Assembly (NCBI RefSeq): GCF_025947285.1
Contig: NZ_CP110008.1
Span: 2,371,001 to 2,435,000 of the forward strand
Reading direction: 5' to 3'
Source of the DNA: Flavobacterium sp. N2820
GTDB taxonomy: Bacteria; Bacteroidota; Bacteroidia; Flavobacteriales; Flavobacteriaceae
Length of the DNA: 64,000 nt
Part shown: positions 4,399-63,444 of the stretch, piece by piece
Numbering within the stretch: position 1 is the first letter of the stretch
How the letters are laid out: each line of letters opens with the position of its first letter
Program-made: the position numbers and the translations under genes
The notes under the pieces: model-generated
Database searches by the model: none
Told to the model about the DNA's origin: nothing
What the model saw: the letters and a program-made list of their open reading frames with translations, nothing else

Positions 4399-4471
4399 AG
4401 CCAATTAACAATATTCAATGAGCTAATGCAGTTAAAATTGGCTTATTGACATATCGTCTTATTGACACATT
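4399..4471. repeat. Inverted 8-bp-period tandem array, copy 1
   Basis: The whole rfbA-rfbC gap divides into 8-mers. The left half reads AGCCAATT, AACAATAT, TCAATG (6), AGCTAATG, CAGTTAAA. The right half reads ATTGGCTT, ATTGACAT, ATCGTCTT, ATTGACAC, ATT. The right-hand unit (ATTGrCAc) is the reverse complement of the left-hand unit (aGyCAATk), so the arms can fold into a hairpin; AGCCAAT (4399-4405) pairs exactly with ATTGGCT (4437-4443). It starts three bases after the rfbA stop and ends five bases before the rfbC ATG. Two longer relatives occur at 61684 and 62158. Confidence 0.75.
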
Positions 4472-36944: not shown

Positions 36945-39518
36945 ATGTACACACTTCCAAAAATTGAACGGTTCCAACAAAATGTGGCCTCAAAATATAC
37001 CATTTACAACAGTGTTTTCATCACGTTGCCTTTTGACGAAATCAATAACACGGGCGTTTTATTGCCTTTGTTTTCTGAAGTTTGTGAAAACGGATACAAA
37101 AACGAGCAAAGTCCAGCGGAGATTTTTGAAACGTTCGTTACCAAATATTTAGATAATCCTTCTGAAGCAGAAAAAATTAGTTTATTGTTTCGATTTATTC
37201 AATATGTGGAGCGACAAGTAGTACTTTTTGATGCGATTGAAGATGCGGCTTTTCAAATTGTGAATAATATGGAAGGCAAAAGTTCGCTTCGAGCTATTAA
37301 AGAAACTGCAGAATCGGAAGGAAAAACTAAAGAACTGAAAGAGTTTTTAGAAAACTTTAAAGTTAGAACAGTTTTAACAGCACATCCCACACAGTTTTAT
37401 CCGGGTTCGGTTTTAGGAATTATTACCGATTTAACGGAAGCTTTGAAAGCTAATAACCATATTGTAATTAAAGATTTGTTGGCGCAATTGGGTAAAACAC
37501 CTTTCTTTAAAAAAGAAAAACCAACACCTTTTGATGAGGCTGTAAGTTTGGTTTGGTATTTGGAAAACGTGTTTTATCCAACGGCAAGCGAAATGGTGCA
37601 CTACCTTCAAAAAAATATTTTCAAAGGAAATGAACTTAAAAATGATGTACTCAATTTGGGTTTTTGGCCGGGTGGCGATAGAGATGGAAATCCGTTTGTT
37701 ACTACCGAAATCACATTGAAAGTTGCTGAACGTTTAAGAACTTCAATTTTAAAATGTTATTATACAGATGTTAGAAAGTTAAAACGAAAACTAACATTTA
37801 CAGGTGTTGATGTGATTATTGCCGAATTAGAAAACAAATTGTATCGCTCTGTTTTTTATTCGGAAGGAGAAATTTTTATTTCTTTAGATGAGTTTAAAAC
37901 ACAATTACAGATTATAAAAAATATCATTGTTGAAAAGCATCAATCGCTTTATGCGGACGAAGTGGATTTGTTGTTGAATAAAGTCAATTTGTTTGGATTT
38001 CATTTTGCCACTTTAGACATTCGTCAGAACAGTAAAATTCATAAAGCGGTTTTTCAAGACATTGTTCAAAAAGAGAAAAGTTTGTTTCCATCAGATTATT
38101 TTAATCTATCGGAAACTGAAAAAATTAATATATTATCTAAAGCTTCTGCCCAATTAAAAGCTTCAGATTTTGACAATGAAATTACGAAAGAAACCATCAG
38201 TTCTATTGAAGCTATTCGAACGATTCAAGAAAATAATGGCGAATTAGGTTGTAATCGTTATATTATTAGTAACAACGAAAGTGCTTTGAACGTCATGGAA
38301 ACGTTAGCCATGTTTCAGTTGTGCGATTGGAACAATCCTTCGGTTGATGTAGTGCCGCTTTTTGAATCGGTGGAAGATTTGCATAAAGCTGATTTAGTGA
38401 TGGAACAATTGTATACCAATTCGGTTTATGCCAACCATTTGAAAAATCGTGGAAACGAGCAAACCATAATGTTAGGTTTTTCTGACGGAACAAAAGATGG
38501 CGGTTATTTAATGGCAAATTGGGCCATATATAAAGCAAAAGAAGCGTTGACCGAAATTTCCAGAAAATACAATATCAAAGTTATTTTCTTTGACGGTCGT
38601 GGTGGACCTCCTGCTCGTGGTGGTGGAAAAACGCATCAGTTTTATGCTTCGTTAGGACCAAAAATAGAAAGTCAGCAATTGCAATTAACGGTGCAAGGAC
38701 AAACCATTAGTTCTAATTTTGGAACGTTGGATTCGTGTCGTTATAATTTAGAAAATTTAGTAAGTGCTGGAGCAAAAAATCAGGTTTTCAACACCAACCA
38801 AAATGAATTAACGCTTTCTGAAAATGCTATTTTAGAACAATTGGCAACAATTAGTTTTAAGAAATACATCGATTTTAAAAATCATCCGCTGTTTGTGCCT
38901 TATTTAGAAAAAATGAGCACGTTGAATTATTATGCAAAAACGAATATCGGAAGCCGACCATCAAAAAGAAAAGCAGCAGCCAAATTGAATTTAGACGATT
39001 TACGAGCCATTCCGTTTGTAGGTTCTTGGAGTCAGTTGAAGCAAAATGTGCCTGGTTTTTTTGGTGTTGGAACGGCTTTAAAATATTTTGAAGAACAAAA
39101 CCGTTGGCATGAAGTAAGTGACTTGTACAAACATTCGTTGTTTTTTAGAACATTGTTAGAAAACAGTATGATGGCGTTGAGCAAATCGTTTTTTCCGCTA
39201 ACAGCTTACATGAAAAACGATGTAGAATTTGGCGCTTTTTGGACGATAATTCACGAGGAATATCTAGAAACCAAACGCTTATTGTTAAAAATTTCAGGGT
39301 TCAAAGAATTGATGGAAAACTATCCCGACGGAAAGGCTTCAATTGAAATGCGAGAAAAAATGGTGGTGCCTTTGATTACCATTCAGCAATATGCTTTGTT
39401 GCGCATAAAAGCCTTACGAGAAAGCCCAACACCTGACGAAAAATTAATTGCAGTGTATGAAAAAATAGTAACGCGCTCGTTGTTTGGAAATATTAACGCG
39501 AGTAGGAATTCGGCTTAG
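36945..39518 (+). CDS. ppc: Phosphoenolpyruvate carboxylase
   Basis: 857 residues. It carboxylates PEP to oxaloacetate, replenishing the TCA cycle. Motifs: VLTAHPTQFYPGS near residue 143 with the catalytic His, GFWPGGDRDGNPFV near 243, FFDGRGGPPARGGGKTH near 546 (the catalytic loop, in the FDGRGG variant seen in Bacteroidota), and NIGSRPSKR near 666. The C-terminus ends NINASRNSA, as in PEPC where the final Asn is catalytic for inhibitor binding. Single gene with plausible terminator downstream. Confidence 0.95.
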   Translation: MYTLPKIERFQQNVASKYTIYNSVFITLPFDEINNTGVLLPLFSEVCENGYKNEQSPAEIFETFVTKYLDNPSEAEKISLLFRFIQYVERQVVLFDAIEDAAFQIVNNMEGKSSLRAIKETAESEGKTKELKEFLENFKVRTVLTAHPTQFYPGSVLGIITDLTEALKANNHIVIKDLLAQLGKTPFFKKEKPTPFDEAVSLVWYLENVFYPTASEMVHYLQKNIFKGNELKNDVLNLGFWPGGDRDGNPFVTTEITLKVAERLRTSILKCYYTDVRKLKRKLTFTGVDVIIAELENKLYRSVFYSEGEIFISLDEFKTQLQIIKNIIVEKHQSLYADEVDLLLNKVNLFGFHFATLDIRQNSKIHKAVFQDIVQKEKSLFPSDYFNLSETEKINILSKASAQLKASDFDNEITKETISSIEAIRTIQENNGELGCNRYIISNNESALNVMETLAMFQLCDWNNPSVDVVPLFESVEDLHKADLVMEQLYTNSVYANHLKNRGNEQTIMLGFSDGTKDGGYLMANWAIYKAKEALTEISRKYNIKVIFFDGRGGPPARGGGKTHQFYASLGPKIESQQLQLTVQGQTISSNFGTLDSCRYNLENLVSAGAKNQVFNTNQNELTLSENAILEQLATISFKKYIDFKNHPLFVPYLEKMSTLNYYAKTNIGSRPSKRKAAAKLNLDDLRAIPFVGSWSQLKQNVPGFFGVGTALKYFEEQNRWHEVSDLYKHSLFFRTLLENSMMALSKSFFPLTAYMKNDVEFGAFWTIIHEEYLETKRLLLKISGFKELMENYPDGKASIEMREKMVVPLITIQQYALLRIKALRESPTPDEKLIAVYEKIVTRSLFGNINASRNSA

Positions 39519-39532
39519 TTTGAAATGAGATT

Positions 39533-39598
39533 CTGAAACAAGTTCAGGATGACAGTGGTTTTCATTATAATTCCTTTGTCAAGCTGAACTTGTTTCAG
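39533..39598. repeat. Inverted repeat CTGAAACAAGTTCAG / CTGAACTTGTTTCAG
   Basis: A perfect 15-base inverted repeat (39533-39547 and 39584-39598) with a 36-base loop and related flanks (GATT.../GTCAAG), just after the ppc stop. I recall the 'CTGAAACAAGTTCAG' core as a common dispersed intergenic repeat in Flavobacteriaceae, so it may be a REP-type element. It does not have a T-run and the loop is long for a terminator. Confidence 0.65.
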
Positions 39599-39607
39599 CT
39601 TCTAAAG

Positions 39608-39649
39608 AATAAACCTCAAAATTTAGATATCTAAACTTTGAGGTTTATT
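39608..39649. terminator. Bidirectional terminator between ppc and the TlpA-like gene
   Basis: Arms AATAAACCTCAAA (39608-39620) and TTTGAGGTTTATT (39637-39649) enclose a second palindrome TTTAGATATCTAAA, giving a long AT-rich hairpin followed by AATTTTTTATT. It lies at the convergent ends of ppc and the thioredoxin-like gene. Confidence 0.75.
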
Positions 39650-39655
39650 AATTTT

Positions 39656-40654
39656 TTATTTCAAAAGACTATCTAACAACTCCGTTAATTGAGCAGAAGA
39701 AGGTCTTGCAGCATCAGCTTTTAAAACTTTTCCATCAGGACCAATTAATAAGAATCTTGGAATAGAGTTAATACCAAAAGCTTTAATAAAATCTGAATTC
39801 CAGTTTTTATCTGCAAACAATTGAATGCCACCTAATTGTTTTTCGGTTACAAATTTTTGCCATTTTTCATGGTCTTTGTCAACATCTACTGAGATACTTA
39901 CAAATTCAATGTTTTTGCCATGGTATTTTTCTTCTACTTTCTTTAAATGAGGAATTTCAGCTCTACAAGGTCCGCACCAAGTTGCCCAAACATCGATGTA
40001 CACATATTTTCCTCTTAAATCTTCTAATTTTGTTTTTCCGCCTTTATGGTTTTCATAATCAAATGAAGGAGCAACGGCATTTTCAAGTTTTTTCGCCGAT
40101 GCTTTTTGATTGAAATATTGCATCAACATCATGCCTTCCTGATTAATCATTGGTTTTGCAATGTCAACCAATTTAGCATCTAAACCTGCATTTTCTAAAT
40201 TAGCTAAATCGCTGGTTTTCTTTTTCTCTAAAGCAGTTTTAAATTCGGCTTCTTCTTTTTCAAGTAAACCTTCTAATTCCATTTCAAAAACCTCGTCGGT
40301 TAGCGCTTTTTTTGCTAAATAATTATTTTCTTTTTCGCCTTTTCCTTTATAAACAATTGTTTCATCAAATTCTTTAGCGTTCATGGTTAAATTTAAATCA
40401 TACCCATCTTTAAAAAATAGTAATGATGATTCTGATCCATCACTAAATTGGTGTAATCCTTCAGTAATTTCAAATGTAGATTCAAAAACACCTTTTTTGT
40501 TAACTGGAATTACATGTTTGAATTTTTTAGGACCAAAAATTGTTAAAGTGTCCGAATTTCGATTTTCGATTTTAGCCGAAAATTTTACTTTGCCTGTTGA
40601 TTGTGCAAACGAAAAACAAGCTGATAATAATAGTAAATAAGTGATTTTTTTCAT
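39656..40654 (-). CDS. TlpA-family thioredoxin-like protein (DUF4369 type)
   Basis: 332 residues with a signal peptide (hydrophobic residues 4-16, ending SFAQ). The N-terminal half is a beta-rich domain resembling DUF4369 (about 20-105), followed by a helical linker with many Glu/Lys (120-190) and a C-terminal thioredoxin fold with the active site WATWCGPCR (Cys227, Cys230) and a cis-Pro in INSIPRFLLIGPDG. Such proteins reduce or shuffle disulfides of exported proteins in the periplasm. It is monocistronic and faces aspS divergently. Confidence 0.9.
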   Translation of the reverse strand: MKKITYLLLLSACFSFAQSTGKVKFSAKIENRNSDTLTIFGPKKFKHVIPVNKKGVFESTFEITEGLHQFSDGSESSLLFFKDGYDLNLTMNAKEFDETIVYKGKGEKENNYLAKKALTDEVFEMELEGLLEKEEAEFKTALEKKKTSDLANLENAGLDAKLVDIAKPMINQEGMMLMQYFNQKASAKKLENAVAPSFDYENHKGGKTKLEDLRGKYVYIDVWATWCGPCRAEIPHLKKVEEKYHGKNIEFVSISVDVDKDHEKWQKFVTEKQLGGIQLFADKNWNSDFIKAFGINSIPRFLLIGPDGKVLKADAARPSSAQLTELLDSLLK

Positions 40655-61025: not shown

Positions 61026-61685
61026 ATGGCATTAGATAAAAATCAAATCGCAAAAAGAATAGCACAAGAAGTAAAAGACGGTTACTATGTAAACTTAGGA
61101 ATCGGAATCCCAACTTTAGTTGCCAATTACGTTCGTACCGATATTTCAGTAGAATTTCAGTCGGAAAACGGAGTTTTAGGAATGGGTCCATTTCCTTTTG
61201 AAGGAGAAGAAGATGCTGACATCATCAACGCAGGAAAACAAACGATTACCACTTTGCCAGGAGCAAGTTTCTTTGATTCGGCGTTTAGTTTCGGAATGAT
61301 TCGTGCGCAAAAAGTAGATTTAACTATTTTAGGAGCGATGGAAGTTTCCGAAAACGGCGACATTGCCAACTGGAAAATTCCAGGAAAAATGGTAAAAGGA
61401 ATGGGTGGCGCTATGGATTTAGTAGCTTCTGCAGAAAATATTATTGTAGCCATGATGCACGTAAATAAAGCTGGAGAATCAAAAATTCTTAAAAAATGTA
61501 CGCTTCCATTAACAGGTGTTGGTTGTGTGAAAAAAGTCGTTACTGAATTAGCCGTTTTAGAAATCACTCCAAACGGTTTCAAATTATTAGAAAGAGCGCC
61601 TGGCGTTTCAGTAGAAGAAATCATCAAAGCAACAGAAGCCGATTTAATCATTGATGGAGATATTCCTGAAATGAGTATTAATTAG
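61026..61685 (+). CDS. scoB: Succinyl-CoA:3-ketoacid CoA-transferase subunit B
   Basis: 219 residues, partner of ScoA. YVNLGIGIPTLVANYV near residue 19, and SENGVLGMGPFPF near 46, where the Glu is the catalytic nucleophile of this family. GAMEVSENGDIANWKIPGKMVKGMGGAMDLV is the conserved middle part. The TAG stop (61683-61685) lies inside the first unit of the inverted 8-bp array copy 2, so the repeat supplies the gene's stop. Confidence 0.94.
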   Translation: MALDKNQIAKRIAQEVKDGYYVNLGIGIPTLVANYVRTDISVEFQSENGVLGMGPFPFEGEEDADIINAGKQTITTLPGASFFDSAFSFGMIRAQKVDLTILGAMEVSENGDIANWKIPGKMVKGMGGAMDLVASAENIIVAMMHVNKAGESKILKKCTLPLTGVGCVKKVVTELAVLEITPNGFKLLERAPGVSVEEIIKATEADLIIDGDIPEMSIN

Positions 61686-61780
61686 CCAATTAGTCAATGA
61701 GGCAATGTGCCAATAAGCTAATTAGTAAATTAGCTAATGAAAAAAATCGATACATTGACACATTGTCTCATTGACACATT
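61684..61780. repeat. Inverted 8-bp-period tandem array, copy 2
   Basis: Seven consecutive 8-mers AGCCAATT, AGTCAATG, AGGCAATG, TGCCAATA, AGCTAATT, AGTAAATT, AGCTAATG (61684-61739), a 14-base centre, then ATTGACAC, ATTGTCTC, ATTGACAC, ATT (61754-61780). The two halves are reverse complements at the unit level. It overlaps the scoB stop codon and ends 17 bases before the S23-like gene. Confidence 0.85.
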
Positions 61781-61797
61781 AAATAAATATATAAGCC

Positions 61798-62166
61798 ATG
61801 ATAACATTTCAAGAAAAGTACAAAAACAATTTAATTCTTTTAAAATCATTTGAATTTGCTAAAAAAGTGGTTCAATACACAGAAAAATTAGAAGAAGACA
61901 GAAAGTATGTAATTGCTAATCAACTATTAAAATCAGGAACTTCGATAGGAGCAAATATCAAAGAAGCTCAAAATTCTGAAAGCAAAGCAGACTTTATTCA
62001 TAAAATGAAAATTGCAATGAAAGAAGCTGATGAAACCGAATTTTGGTTATTCCTTTGTAACGAATTAGAAAATTATCCAAATACAGAAGAATTACTAACT
62101 GAAGTTTTTGATATATTAAAAATTACAAATAAAATCATTTCAACAACCAAAAAAATTAGCCAATAA
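61798..62166 (+). CDS. Four-helix-bundle protein (23S rRNA-IVS protein-like)
   Basis: 122 residues, all helical, with SGTSIGANIKEAQNSESKADF (part near 45-65) and KMKIAMKEADETEFWL, the signature of the S23 / four-helix-bundle family first seen as ORFs inside 23S rRNA intervening sequences. The function is unknown; a pentameric bundle is known from structural work on relatives. The gene is bracketed by two inverted 8-bp arrays, and its last codons and TAA stop (Ser-Gln-stop) lie within the second array. It sits between scoB and the RlmI-like gene, both housekeeping genes, so it looks like an inserted cassette. Confidence 0.85.
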   Translation: MITFQEKYKNNLILLKSFEFAKKVVQYTEKLEEDRKYVIANQLLKSGTSIGANIKEAQNSESKADFIHKMKIAMKEADETEFWLFLCNELENYPNTEELLTEVFDILKITNKIISTTKKISQ

Positions 62167-62277
62167 GGCAATGAGACAATATGCCAATTAGTTGATGAGT
62201 TAGTAATTTAATAATTGACTAATTCTCAAATTGACACATTGTATCGGCACATTGGCACATTGACTAATTGACACATT
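62158..62277. repeat. Inverted 8-bp-period tandem array, copy 3
   Basis: Fifteen contiguous units in exact 8-base phase except one of five bases. Left: AGCCAATA, AGGCAATG, AGACAATA, TGCCAATT, AGTTGATG, AGTTAGTA, ATTTAATA. Right: ATTGACTA, ATTCTCAA, ATTGACAC, ATTGTATC, GGCAC, ATTGGCAC, ATTGACTA, ATTGACAC, ATT. The array starts within the last codons of the S23-like gene and ends three bases before the ATG at 62281. Confidence 0.87.
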
Positions 62278-62280
62278 AAC

Positions 62281-63444
62281 ATGTTCCCAAAAGTAATTCT
62301 AAAATCAGGTAAAGAAAAATCTATTCAACGTCGTCACCCTTGGATTTTCAGTGGTGCGGTTTATGGCGTGAGTCGTGAAATAAACGATGGCGAAATGGTA
62401 GATGTAGTCGATTCGAAAAACAATCATTTAGGAACCGGATATTTCAGTGATAAAGGAAGTATTGTGGTTCGTATTTTGACGTTTGGCGAAGAGACTTTCT
62501 CTGAAAACTTTTGGGCAGCCAAACTACAATCGGCTTGGTATTTACGCACCCAATTATTAGATTTTGAAGTTACCAATGCGTTCCGAGTAATTCACGGAGA
62601 AGGCGATGGAATTTCGGGATTGATTATTGATTATTACGATAAAAATTGGGTAATACAAGCGCATTCGACAGGAGTTTTTCTTCAAATGGAGCAAATTTCT
62701 GAAGCCATAAAATCTAATTTTACAGACTATTGCGAAACCATTTATTGCAAAAGTTCAGGAACTTTACCGAATACTGGAACCGATTATTTCTTATTCGGAA
62801 ACAAAGCAGAAGCAGTTGCTAAAGAGAACAACATTTTGTTTTCAGTAAATTGGGTAGAAGGACAAAAAACAGGGTTTTTCTTAGACCAACGCGATAACCG
62901 AAAGTTATTAGGCGAATTCTCAAAAGGCAAAAAAGTATTAAACACGTTTTGTTACACAGGCGGATTTTCAATTTACGCGATGAGTGCTGGCGCAGAATTG
63001 GTAACTTCGGTAGATATCTCTCAAAAAGCGGTAGATTTAGCAGCCAGTAATATGGAATTAAATTTTCCAAACGCCAATCATAAAGCAGTTGCGGATGATG
63101 TATTCAACTTCATGAAAGAGCACACGCAACAATACGATGTTATTGTATTAGATCCGCCCGCTTTCGCGAAAAGCATCAAAAGTAAACATACGGCAACGCA
63201 AGCCTACAAACGTTTAAATATAGCTGGTTTAAAAGCCTTAGCACCTAACGGAATTTTATTCACGTTTTCGTGTTCACAGGTAATTGACGATGTTTTGTTT
63301 TACAACACTGTTGCCGCAGCAGCCATAGAAACCGGAAGAAATATCCGAGTCTTACACAAATTAGAACAAGGCCCAGATCACCCAATCAACATTTATCACC
63401 CAGAAGGGCATTATTTAAAAGGATTGGTGTTGTTTGTGGAGTAG
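62281..63444 (+). CDS. RlmI-type 23S rRNA (cytosine-5) methyltransferase
   Basis: 387 residues. An N-terminal PUA domain (about 1-75; RRHPWIFSGAVYG and GTGYFSDKGSIVVRIL), a linker domain, and a C-terminal Rossmann methyltransferase with LNTFCYTGGFSIYAMSAGA near 220, DPPAFAKSIKSK near 288 and FTFSCSQ near 329. In E. coli RlmI makes m5C1962 in 23S rRNA; paralogues (RlmK, YccW-like) share this layout, so the exact target is not certain. The ATG is preceded directly by the inverted array. Confidence 0.85.
   Translation: MFPKVILKSGKEKSIQRRHPWIFSGAVYGVSREINDGEMVDVVDSKNNHLGTGYFSDKGSIVVRILTFGEETFSENFWAAKLQSAWYLRTQLLDFEVTNAFRVIHGEGDGISGLIIDYYDKNWVIQAHSTGVFLQMEQISEAIKSNFTDYCETIYCKSSGTLPNTGTDYFLFGNKAEAVAKENNILFSVNWVEGQKTGFFLDQRDNRKLLGEFSKGKKVLNTFCYTGGFSIYAMSAGAELVTSVDISQKAVDLAASNMELNFPNANHKAVADDVFNFMKEHTQQYDVIVLDPPAFAKSIKSKHTATQAYKRLNIAGLKALAPNGILFTFSCSQVIDDVLFYNTVAAAAIETGRNIRVLHKLEQGPDHPINIYHPEGHYLKGLVLFVE

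Follow-up and report, generated by a model that had tools for sequence, protein, structure and literature searches.

Tandem 7-8-nt arrays between Flavobacterium genes as probable ends and gene-less derivatives of a dispersed IVS-like element

The short tandem arrays that lie between genes of Flavobacterium sp. N2820 are best read as parts of a dispersed IVS-like element, either its ends or derivatives without its gene, whose IVP (S23/four-helix-bundle) protein would act in trans, and we give this reading a probability of about 0.6. A full copy would comprise an array of 7-8-nt units, an IVP gene and the array again in inverted orientation, and a solo copy would be the palindromic hairpin array alone. 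The arrays came to notice in what we call the window, the whole stretch of 64,000 nucleotides that was analysed, where an earlier note had described three gaps filled with a tandem 8-mer followed by its reverse complement. That interpretation was incomplete: the element also includes the gene that separates copies 2 and 3, dozens of other 7-8-nt units occur in the same layout as the 8-mer, and this layout extends beyond the genus.

Architecture of the element

Table 1. Positions of the arrays, the IVP gene and the whole element in the window, and of two plasmid-borne IVP genes
Feature	Position	Strand	Remarks
Array copy 1	4399..4471	.	Solo, degenerate; rmlA-rmlC gap
Array copy 2	61684..61780	.	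Upstream flank of IVP gene; GNCAAT-type left arm, ATTGNC-type right arm
Array copy 3	62158..62277	.	Downstream flank of IVP gene, overlapping its stop codon
IVP / S23 four-helix-bundle gene	61798..62166	+	122 aa; PF05635 E 2.8e-23; TIGR02436 E 7.6e-28
Whole element	61683..62280	+	scoB to rlmI-like gene; predicted outer stem
Cyanobacterial plasmid IVP genes amid CRISPR genes	L436 1201-1560; L440 1174-1530

Copies 2 and 3 stand far above chance by lag-8 self-identity, which reaches 0.67 in copy 2 (shuffle mean 0.28, maximum 0.43) and 0.65 in copy 3 (shuffle mean 0.28, maximum 0.42), more than in any of 2000 shuffles. No other 97-nt stretch in the window has a lag-8 value as high, and TRF gives period-8 rows at 61680-61738, 61752-61780, 62154-62188 and 62248-62281. 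The 8-nt-phased palindromic arrays described earlier are thus borne out against shuffled sequence, the comparison by which the earlier note had proposed to judge them. Copy 1 is weaker, with a lag-8 identity of 0.46 that is matched by about 1 in 2000 shuffles, and in a second test its palindrome score is 10.0, the same as the median of the shuffles, and not significant. The phase had been called almost perfect, but it has breaks: CAAT cores stand 7 nt apart in copy 1, and copy 3 has a 5-nt slip in the stretch from 62238 to 62251. All three copies fold as RNA better than their own shuffles (z -8.1 for copy 2, -3.0 for copy 3 and -3.5 for copy 1), in agreement with arms that can form a hairpin, and the distances of 3-17 nt from the arrays to the next ATG proved correct for the three window copies. 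A scan of the window's gaps found several strong single hairpins; as arrays, only copies 2 and 3 were distinct, copy 3 barely so (score 16.5 against 16.0 at 99% of shuffles). Elsewhere in the window, strong inverted repeats that may be a pair of terminators lie in the 137-nt gap (39518-39656) of two converging genes.

The gene enclosed by copies 2 and 3 encodes a small four-helix protein of a kind familiar chiefly from rRNA insertions; it matches both IVP families above their cut-offs and has a relative in the PDB (2RLD), and family searches named no nuclease domain in it; its rlmI-like neighbour scores below its own family cut-off. In the predicted outer stem, the left arm of copy 2 pairs with the right arm of copy 3 and the IVP gene occupies the loop. 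The RNA fold of the whole element has a z of -6.28, with 0 of 100 shuffles as good, and the flank score of the locus, 23.0, reflects terminal inverted repeats able to pair around the ORF. Searches for known RNA gave no Rfam match in the window and no rRNA match among 80 related loci, with two tRNAs in L275. PADLOC, which covers defence systems, had no match for the two IVPs searched, and the single IVP tried against INPHARED (L087) had no phage match.

Ten IVP-family matches are present in the genome, one with an internal stop. Their flanks carry short tandem repeats on both sides that are mutually inverted, with units that differ between copies, and 8 of the 9 intact copies reach the flank threshold defined below, L025 being the one that fails.

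Distribution of arrays and IVP genes

Nineteen matches to ATTGNCNNATTGNCNNATTG occur in the 3.06-Mb genome and make up 12 arrays, two of which are copies 2 and 3, copy 1 being too degenerate to match; ATTGNCNNATTGNCNNATTG read backwards has no match in the same 3.06 Mb. Ten more arrays therefore lie outside the window, and the dispersed family proposed earlier, against which a lack of further genomic copies was to have counted, is upheld. Where these ten copies are two-armed, GNCAAT units come first and ATTGNC units second, and some copies are mainly one-armed. A tight fit to the gap is common, with five of the ten (L001, L002, L008, L009, L017) at most 15 nt from both neighbouring ORFs, but the strict placement claimed earlier does not hold, as L005, L007 and L019 lie 75-214 nt away from one neighbour. 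Nor is an ATG always next after the array, because L001 and L008 sit between convergent genes and hence have no start codon downstream. The position of these two solo copies also disfavours a role in translation reinitiation. What remains supported is a dispersed palindromic element that prefers gaps between genes.

The association of arrays with IVP genes was measured in a same-genus set of 61 genomes (G000-G060, of which G000 is the window's genome), 60 of which have at least one IVP-family match, with a maximum of 16 per genome. In our flank test, the 120 nt before an ORF are aligned with the 120 nt after it, the latter taken as reverse complement, and a score of at least 12.5 is a pass. 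The genus sample holds 99 loci (100 ORFs) from 366 matches, namely those of the window's own genome and the higher-scoring listed ones. Inverted flanks were found at 76 of the 100 IVP ORFs against 8 of 195 control genes from the same loci (p 9e-31), in samples that are skewed to high-scoring matches, with rule-based ORF starts and kinship partly handled. The median IVP flank score is 16.5, where shuffles average 7.9; 24 ORFs fail, and the interrupted IVP L029 was scored as a miss. By eye, at least four of the eight passing control genes carry units like those of their own locus's IVP arrays. Mismatched upstream and downstream flanks, taken from different IVP loci, reach 12.5 in 5.4% of 595 combinations, and when each orthologous cluster is reduced to one median value, 26 of 35 pass. 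A strong period within a single flank is seen in 101 of 350 IVP flanks versus 1 of 350 shuffled ones, and in 98 of 714 flanks of control genes, where the adjoining gap often contains an array. Placement is codirectional: with neighbours taken as ORFs within 400 nt, the IVP gene shares the strand of the upstream gene in 90 of 91 cases and of the downstream gene in 82 of 90, where the baseline for neighbours in the window is 41 of 57.

The same layout recurs in many phyla. From a species-level collection we took the best 80 of 583 relatives and dropped four at contig edges; 44 of the remaining 76 IVP genes pass the flank test and 32 fail, with 6 of 162 other ORFs passing (p 1e-19). Judged by record title, the passing loci include Clostridia, Poribacteria, Acidobacteria, Geobacter, Geothrix and Chloroflexi, and also Planctomycetes, Methylobacillus, Parcubacteria and Ignavibacteriae. 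On contigs classed as viral, 41 loci have IVP relatives; one was dropped, and 28 of the 40 testable loci pass, in a set that has a few near-duplicate rows and no controls. Cyanobacterial plasmid IVPs pass in four of seven cases (7 of 26 records fetched). One of the plasmid genes, L436, has long heptamer arrays in direct rather than inverted orientation, and at L437 no arrays were seen by eye. Two plasmid IVP genes have CRISPR-associated neighbours, lying between cas6 and cas4 in Pseudanabaena and between cas10 and a cmr3-family gene in Picosynechococcus.

Turnover at orthologous gaps

At one orthologous junction an IVP copy is present in one genome and absent from others. Among the 59 genomes with a scoB match, 30 loci were read; scoB adjoins an rlmI-like gene in eight of them, and an IVP gene lies there in G000 only. 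In the other seven genomes this gap is 47-132 nt long and holds no IVP, and in G029 it retains an apparent remnant of the left arm. The scoB-rlmI gaps of G059 (L198) and G020 (L202) have a repeated-looking hairpin with GCAGATT units. Near scoB in relatives there are also other IVP genes or an array (L370, L371, L372, L065): IVP genes 52-54% identical to that of the window lie directly upstream of scoB in three genomes, and G058 has an ATTGNC array upstream of scoB.

A second junction, between atpA and atpG (these names, like accC below, were assigned by reading the sequence), is occupied by arrays of many unrelated units. The best lag, of 4-12 tried, is 7 or 8 in 55 of the 61 genomes, and the gap is palindromic at p <= 0.01 in 42 of the 61. 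It measures 14 nt in G023, and in G035, the sole genome without an IVP, the hairpin looks plain although its best lag is 8. Here one array family has been swapped for another between near-identical genomes: the flanks of G000 and G011 agree at 883 of 900 bases on one side and 785 of 800 on the other (about 98%), and the gap holds an ATTGNC array in G000 (76 nt) and an AGTRAWT array in G011 (73 nt), whose units are unrelated. AGTRAWT at this gap is common to G020 and five more distant genomes, so that the G000 array looks derived. In at least three genomes the sequence upstream of accC combines an arm of one array family with an arm of another, and a G011 gap orthologous to the IVP locus L028 holds an apparent IVP remnant between other array types. 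The edges of the arrays are themselves repeats, and a clean recent insertion was not isolated. Any movement of the element is read from sequence comparisons of this kind.

The same hairpins could have a different meaning. They could be host RNA elements for operon processing or stability, in which the fold is selected and the letters drift, with IVP genes as passengers in the hairpin loops. A sense-strand RNA role does find some support at atpA-atpG, where the palindrome is kept through changes of unit, where mismatches on the sense strand are G-U more often than A-C (82 versus 52, p 0.012, relatedness uncorrected) and where 5 of 20 pairs in the AGTRAWT group show two-sided change. In the AATTAGAT group, however, two-sided change is seen in only 1 of 23 pairs, and the two IVP arms give no such backing. 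Their mismatches are 98 G-U versus 131 A-C, a test confounded by base composition, and the sense fold is the more stable one in 48 of 120. With no G-U excess, a long stem acting as RNA is not supported for the IVP arms, and strand-specific RNA selection on them likewise finds no support. Host RNA elements would also leave unexplained the repeated use of a single unit across many gaps in a genome and the tendency of units to go with IVP lineages, and copies at convergent gaps fit them poorly. We consider this alternative unlikely, though it survives better than the others discussed below.

Match of unit to protein

The best period over 120 loci with inverted flanks, of periods 6-10 tried, is 7 in 77 loci, 8 in 35, 9 in 5 and 6 in 3; at the window locus it is 8. 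The letters of the units are biased as well. The dinucleotide AG is present in 40 of 55 distinct strong heptamers (letter-shuffled mean 26.7, maximum 35 in 500 rounds), with a weaker excess in octamers (16 of 24; 11.2 expected, maximum 17).

The unit tends to follow the protein lineage of the IVP. Among 76 ORFs above the flank threshold, and with pairs from different gene contexts only, the share of pairs with matching flank units is 0.9% at 40-50% protein identity (1166 pairs), 9 of 16 at 70-80% and 3 of 3 above 80%, the close pairs mostly involving the single locus L114. The rank correlation between unit and protein is weak (0.14) and was reached by 0 of 999 permutations. For the window IVP, the closest relatives (64-65% identity) lie before a different gene in three genomes, and their flanks carry GNCAAT and AATTAGAT-type units. 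At the genome level, 20 or more AGTRAWT matches are found in 7 of the 16 genomes that encode an IVP at least 70% identical to L114 versus 3 of 45 genomes without one (p 0.002 by Fisher test and 0.018 by rank test, relatedness uncorrected); the three are G011 and G059, with 45 matches each, and G041, with 23. Six genomes with an L114-like IVP (at least 70%) have no AGTRAWT match, and in G011, G029, G033 and G059 ATTGNC arrays are present with no IVP matching that of the window at E <= 1e-12. A role in trans is weakened by these several genomes that carry arrays without a cognate IVP. Within loci, the downstream arm fits its own upstream arm better than it fits orthologous arms in a mean of 0.78 of comparisons (55 loci, p 3e-7), an advantage that is not universal, since it falls to 0.33 in one orthologous cluster.

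An association of this kind would also fit an IVP that binds the repeats to regulate its own operon, or operons with solo arrays, and takes no part in spread, the arrays arising and moving by ordinary recombination. Recognition without mobility fits the match of unit to protein, and PF05635 proteins resemble Avd of diversity-generating retroelements in the cited passages (PMC10053308), a kinship seen here in the match of L087 to the Avd PHROG phrog_3206 (E 1.2e-9). The gain or loss of the IVP together with its arrays at a kept junction looks more like an element, and so do the nine pairs in which different IVPs with different units occupy one gene context. We rate a pure regulator as unlikely, slightly below host RNA elements. 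At the loci L021, L057, L100 and L111, which share one gene context, the IVPs are 42-44% identical and the units differ between genomes.

A reverse transcriptase partner, as in a diversity-generating retroelement, was considered and set aside. G000 has a single RVT_1 match (L402, C1:1303719-1304159), more than 1.1 Mb away from the IVP gene of the window, and G012, the genome richest in AGTRAWT matches, has none. The window IVP itself had no PHROG match.

Comparison with described systems

Cyanobacterial STRR are intergenic arrays of short 7-nt tandem units. Similar heptamers are described in the passages cited here as TAACTGA arrays between genes of Beggiatoaceae and others (PMC4679880), as GGGAATC and GGGGATT in Xanthomonas and Nostoc, where those of Xanthomonas form inverted pairs in close proximity (PMC4692102), and as GGGACCG in Geobacter metallireducens (PMC2700814). 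The Xanthomonas authors report that there are generally no mobile elements beside the arrays. The likeness to our arrays lies in short tandem units that fill intergenic gaps in many copies; the unit of the window is 8 nt long, and 7 is the best period at 77 of the 120 IVP loci with inverted flanks. The terms 'S23' and 'four helix' are absent from the main texts of these three papers (PMC4679880, PMC4692102, PMC2700814), and a full-text search, which took in few subscription papers and no preprints, found no literature that, the rRNA IVS apart, ties IVP/S23 genes to arrays of short tandem repeats. The earlier statement that no formal description existed thus stands for the link to IVP genes outside rRNA but not for the arrays as such, given the heptamer arrays of other bacteria and the IVS of 23S rRNA.

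For these bacterial heptamers, slippage with a preferred length of 7 nt has been proposed (PMC4679880, PMC4692102). Polymerase slippage and palindrome formation alone, with an incidental IVP association, would suit the long perfect runs of some arrays such as L114. A palindrome-building process, which the earlier note had offered as a source, is possible; slippage by itself is already hard to square with the excess at IVP genes over controls in two samples, and fits poorly with inversion across a gene and with one unit common to many distant gaps. We regard it as improbable.

The closest described relative is the IVS of 23S rRNA. In Coxiella burnetii it holds an S23p ORF, has a 28-bp stem of terminal repeats and is excised by RNase III, and tandem GACAGAT heptamers precede the ORF in a number that varies between strains (PMC4990558). 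The window element shares with it an IVP-family ORF looped by a terminal inverted-repeat stem and the tandem short units, and the arms of L270 repeat the Coxiella heptamer in another rotation (PMC4990558). Unlike that IVS, the element lies between scoB and an rlmI-like gene rather than in a 23S helix, and it has dispersed gene-less copies and many units. According to the Coxiella authors, the S23p protein is probably not made there (PMC4990558), so that an active IVP is not favoured in that case.

The best functional analogy is REPIN/RAYT, in which extragenic palindromes of several families are dispersed in gaps and each family has a gene flanked by the same repeats (PMC3116915). Dispersed extragenic palindromes are present in the genome of the window too; the gene here encodes a four-helix-bundle protein and not a Y1 transposase, and the arms are tandem 7-8-mers. 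PF01797 (Y1_Tnp) has 0 matches in G000 (1, 2 and 3 in the other three genomes searched), which speaks against RAYT as the mover in this genome, barring an overlooked diverged Y1 gene, and we take REPINs moved by RAYT to be by far the least probable account.

Discussion

On the IVS-like element that we favour, the IVP would recognise its own unit in trans and promote the copying or insertion of arrays, much as RAYT is presumed to do for REPINs. New arrays would prefer gaps that already have a hairpin and would overwrite it, sometimes one arm each time. Fold-back of the transcript may be what makes insertion tolerable, by analogy with the rRNA IVS, which RNase III removes.

A wider generalisation is conceivable, at somewhat less than even odds. 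IVP/S23 genes may form a class of mobile elements that crosses phyla and has no known nuclease, in which a four-helix-bundle oligomer would drive the making, the spread and the in-place replacement of 7-8-nt palindromes. The rRNA IVS would then be one niche of this class, and the heptamers of Cyanobacteria, Xanthomonas, Beggiatoaceae and Geobacter would be its footprints. Arrays might arise by templated reiterative copying, which is conceivable given that the IVP is akin to Avd, a protein that partners a reverse transcriptase.

The element offers a starting point for working out what IVP proteins do, a widespread family to which no function has been assigned. It also makes two matters testable, namely what moves IVS-like elements and how unrelated palindromic arrays are swapped between near-identical genomes. 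The short-repeat families of Beggiatoaceae, xanthomonads, cyanobacteria and Geobacter, for which the passages cited above invoke slippage, unidentified regulators or an unknown mechanism, gain a candidate common origin, and the element could explain where many of the puzzling short-repeat hairpins between bacterial genes come from.
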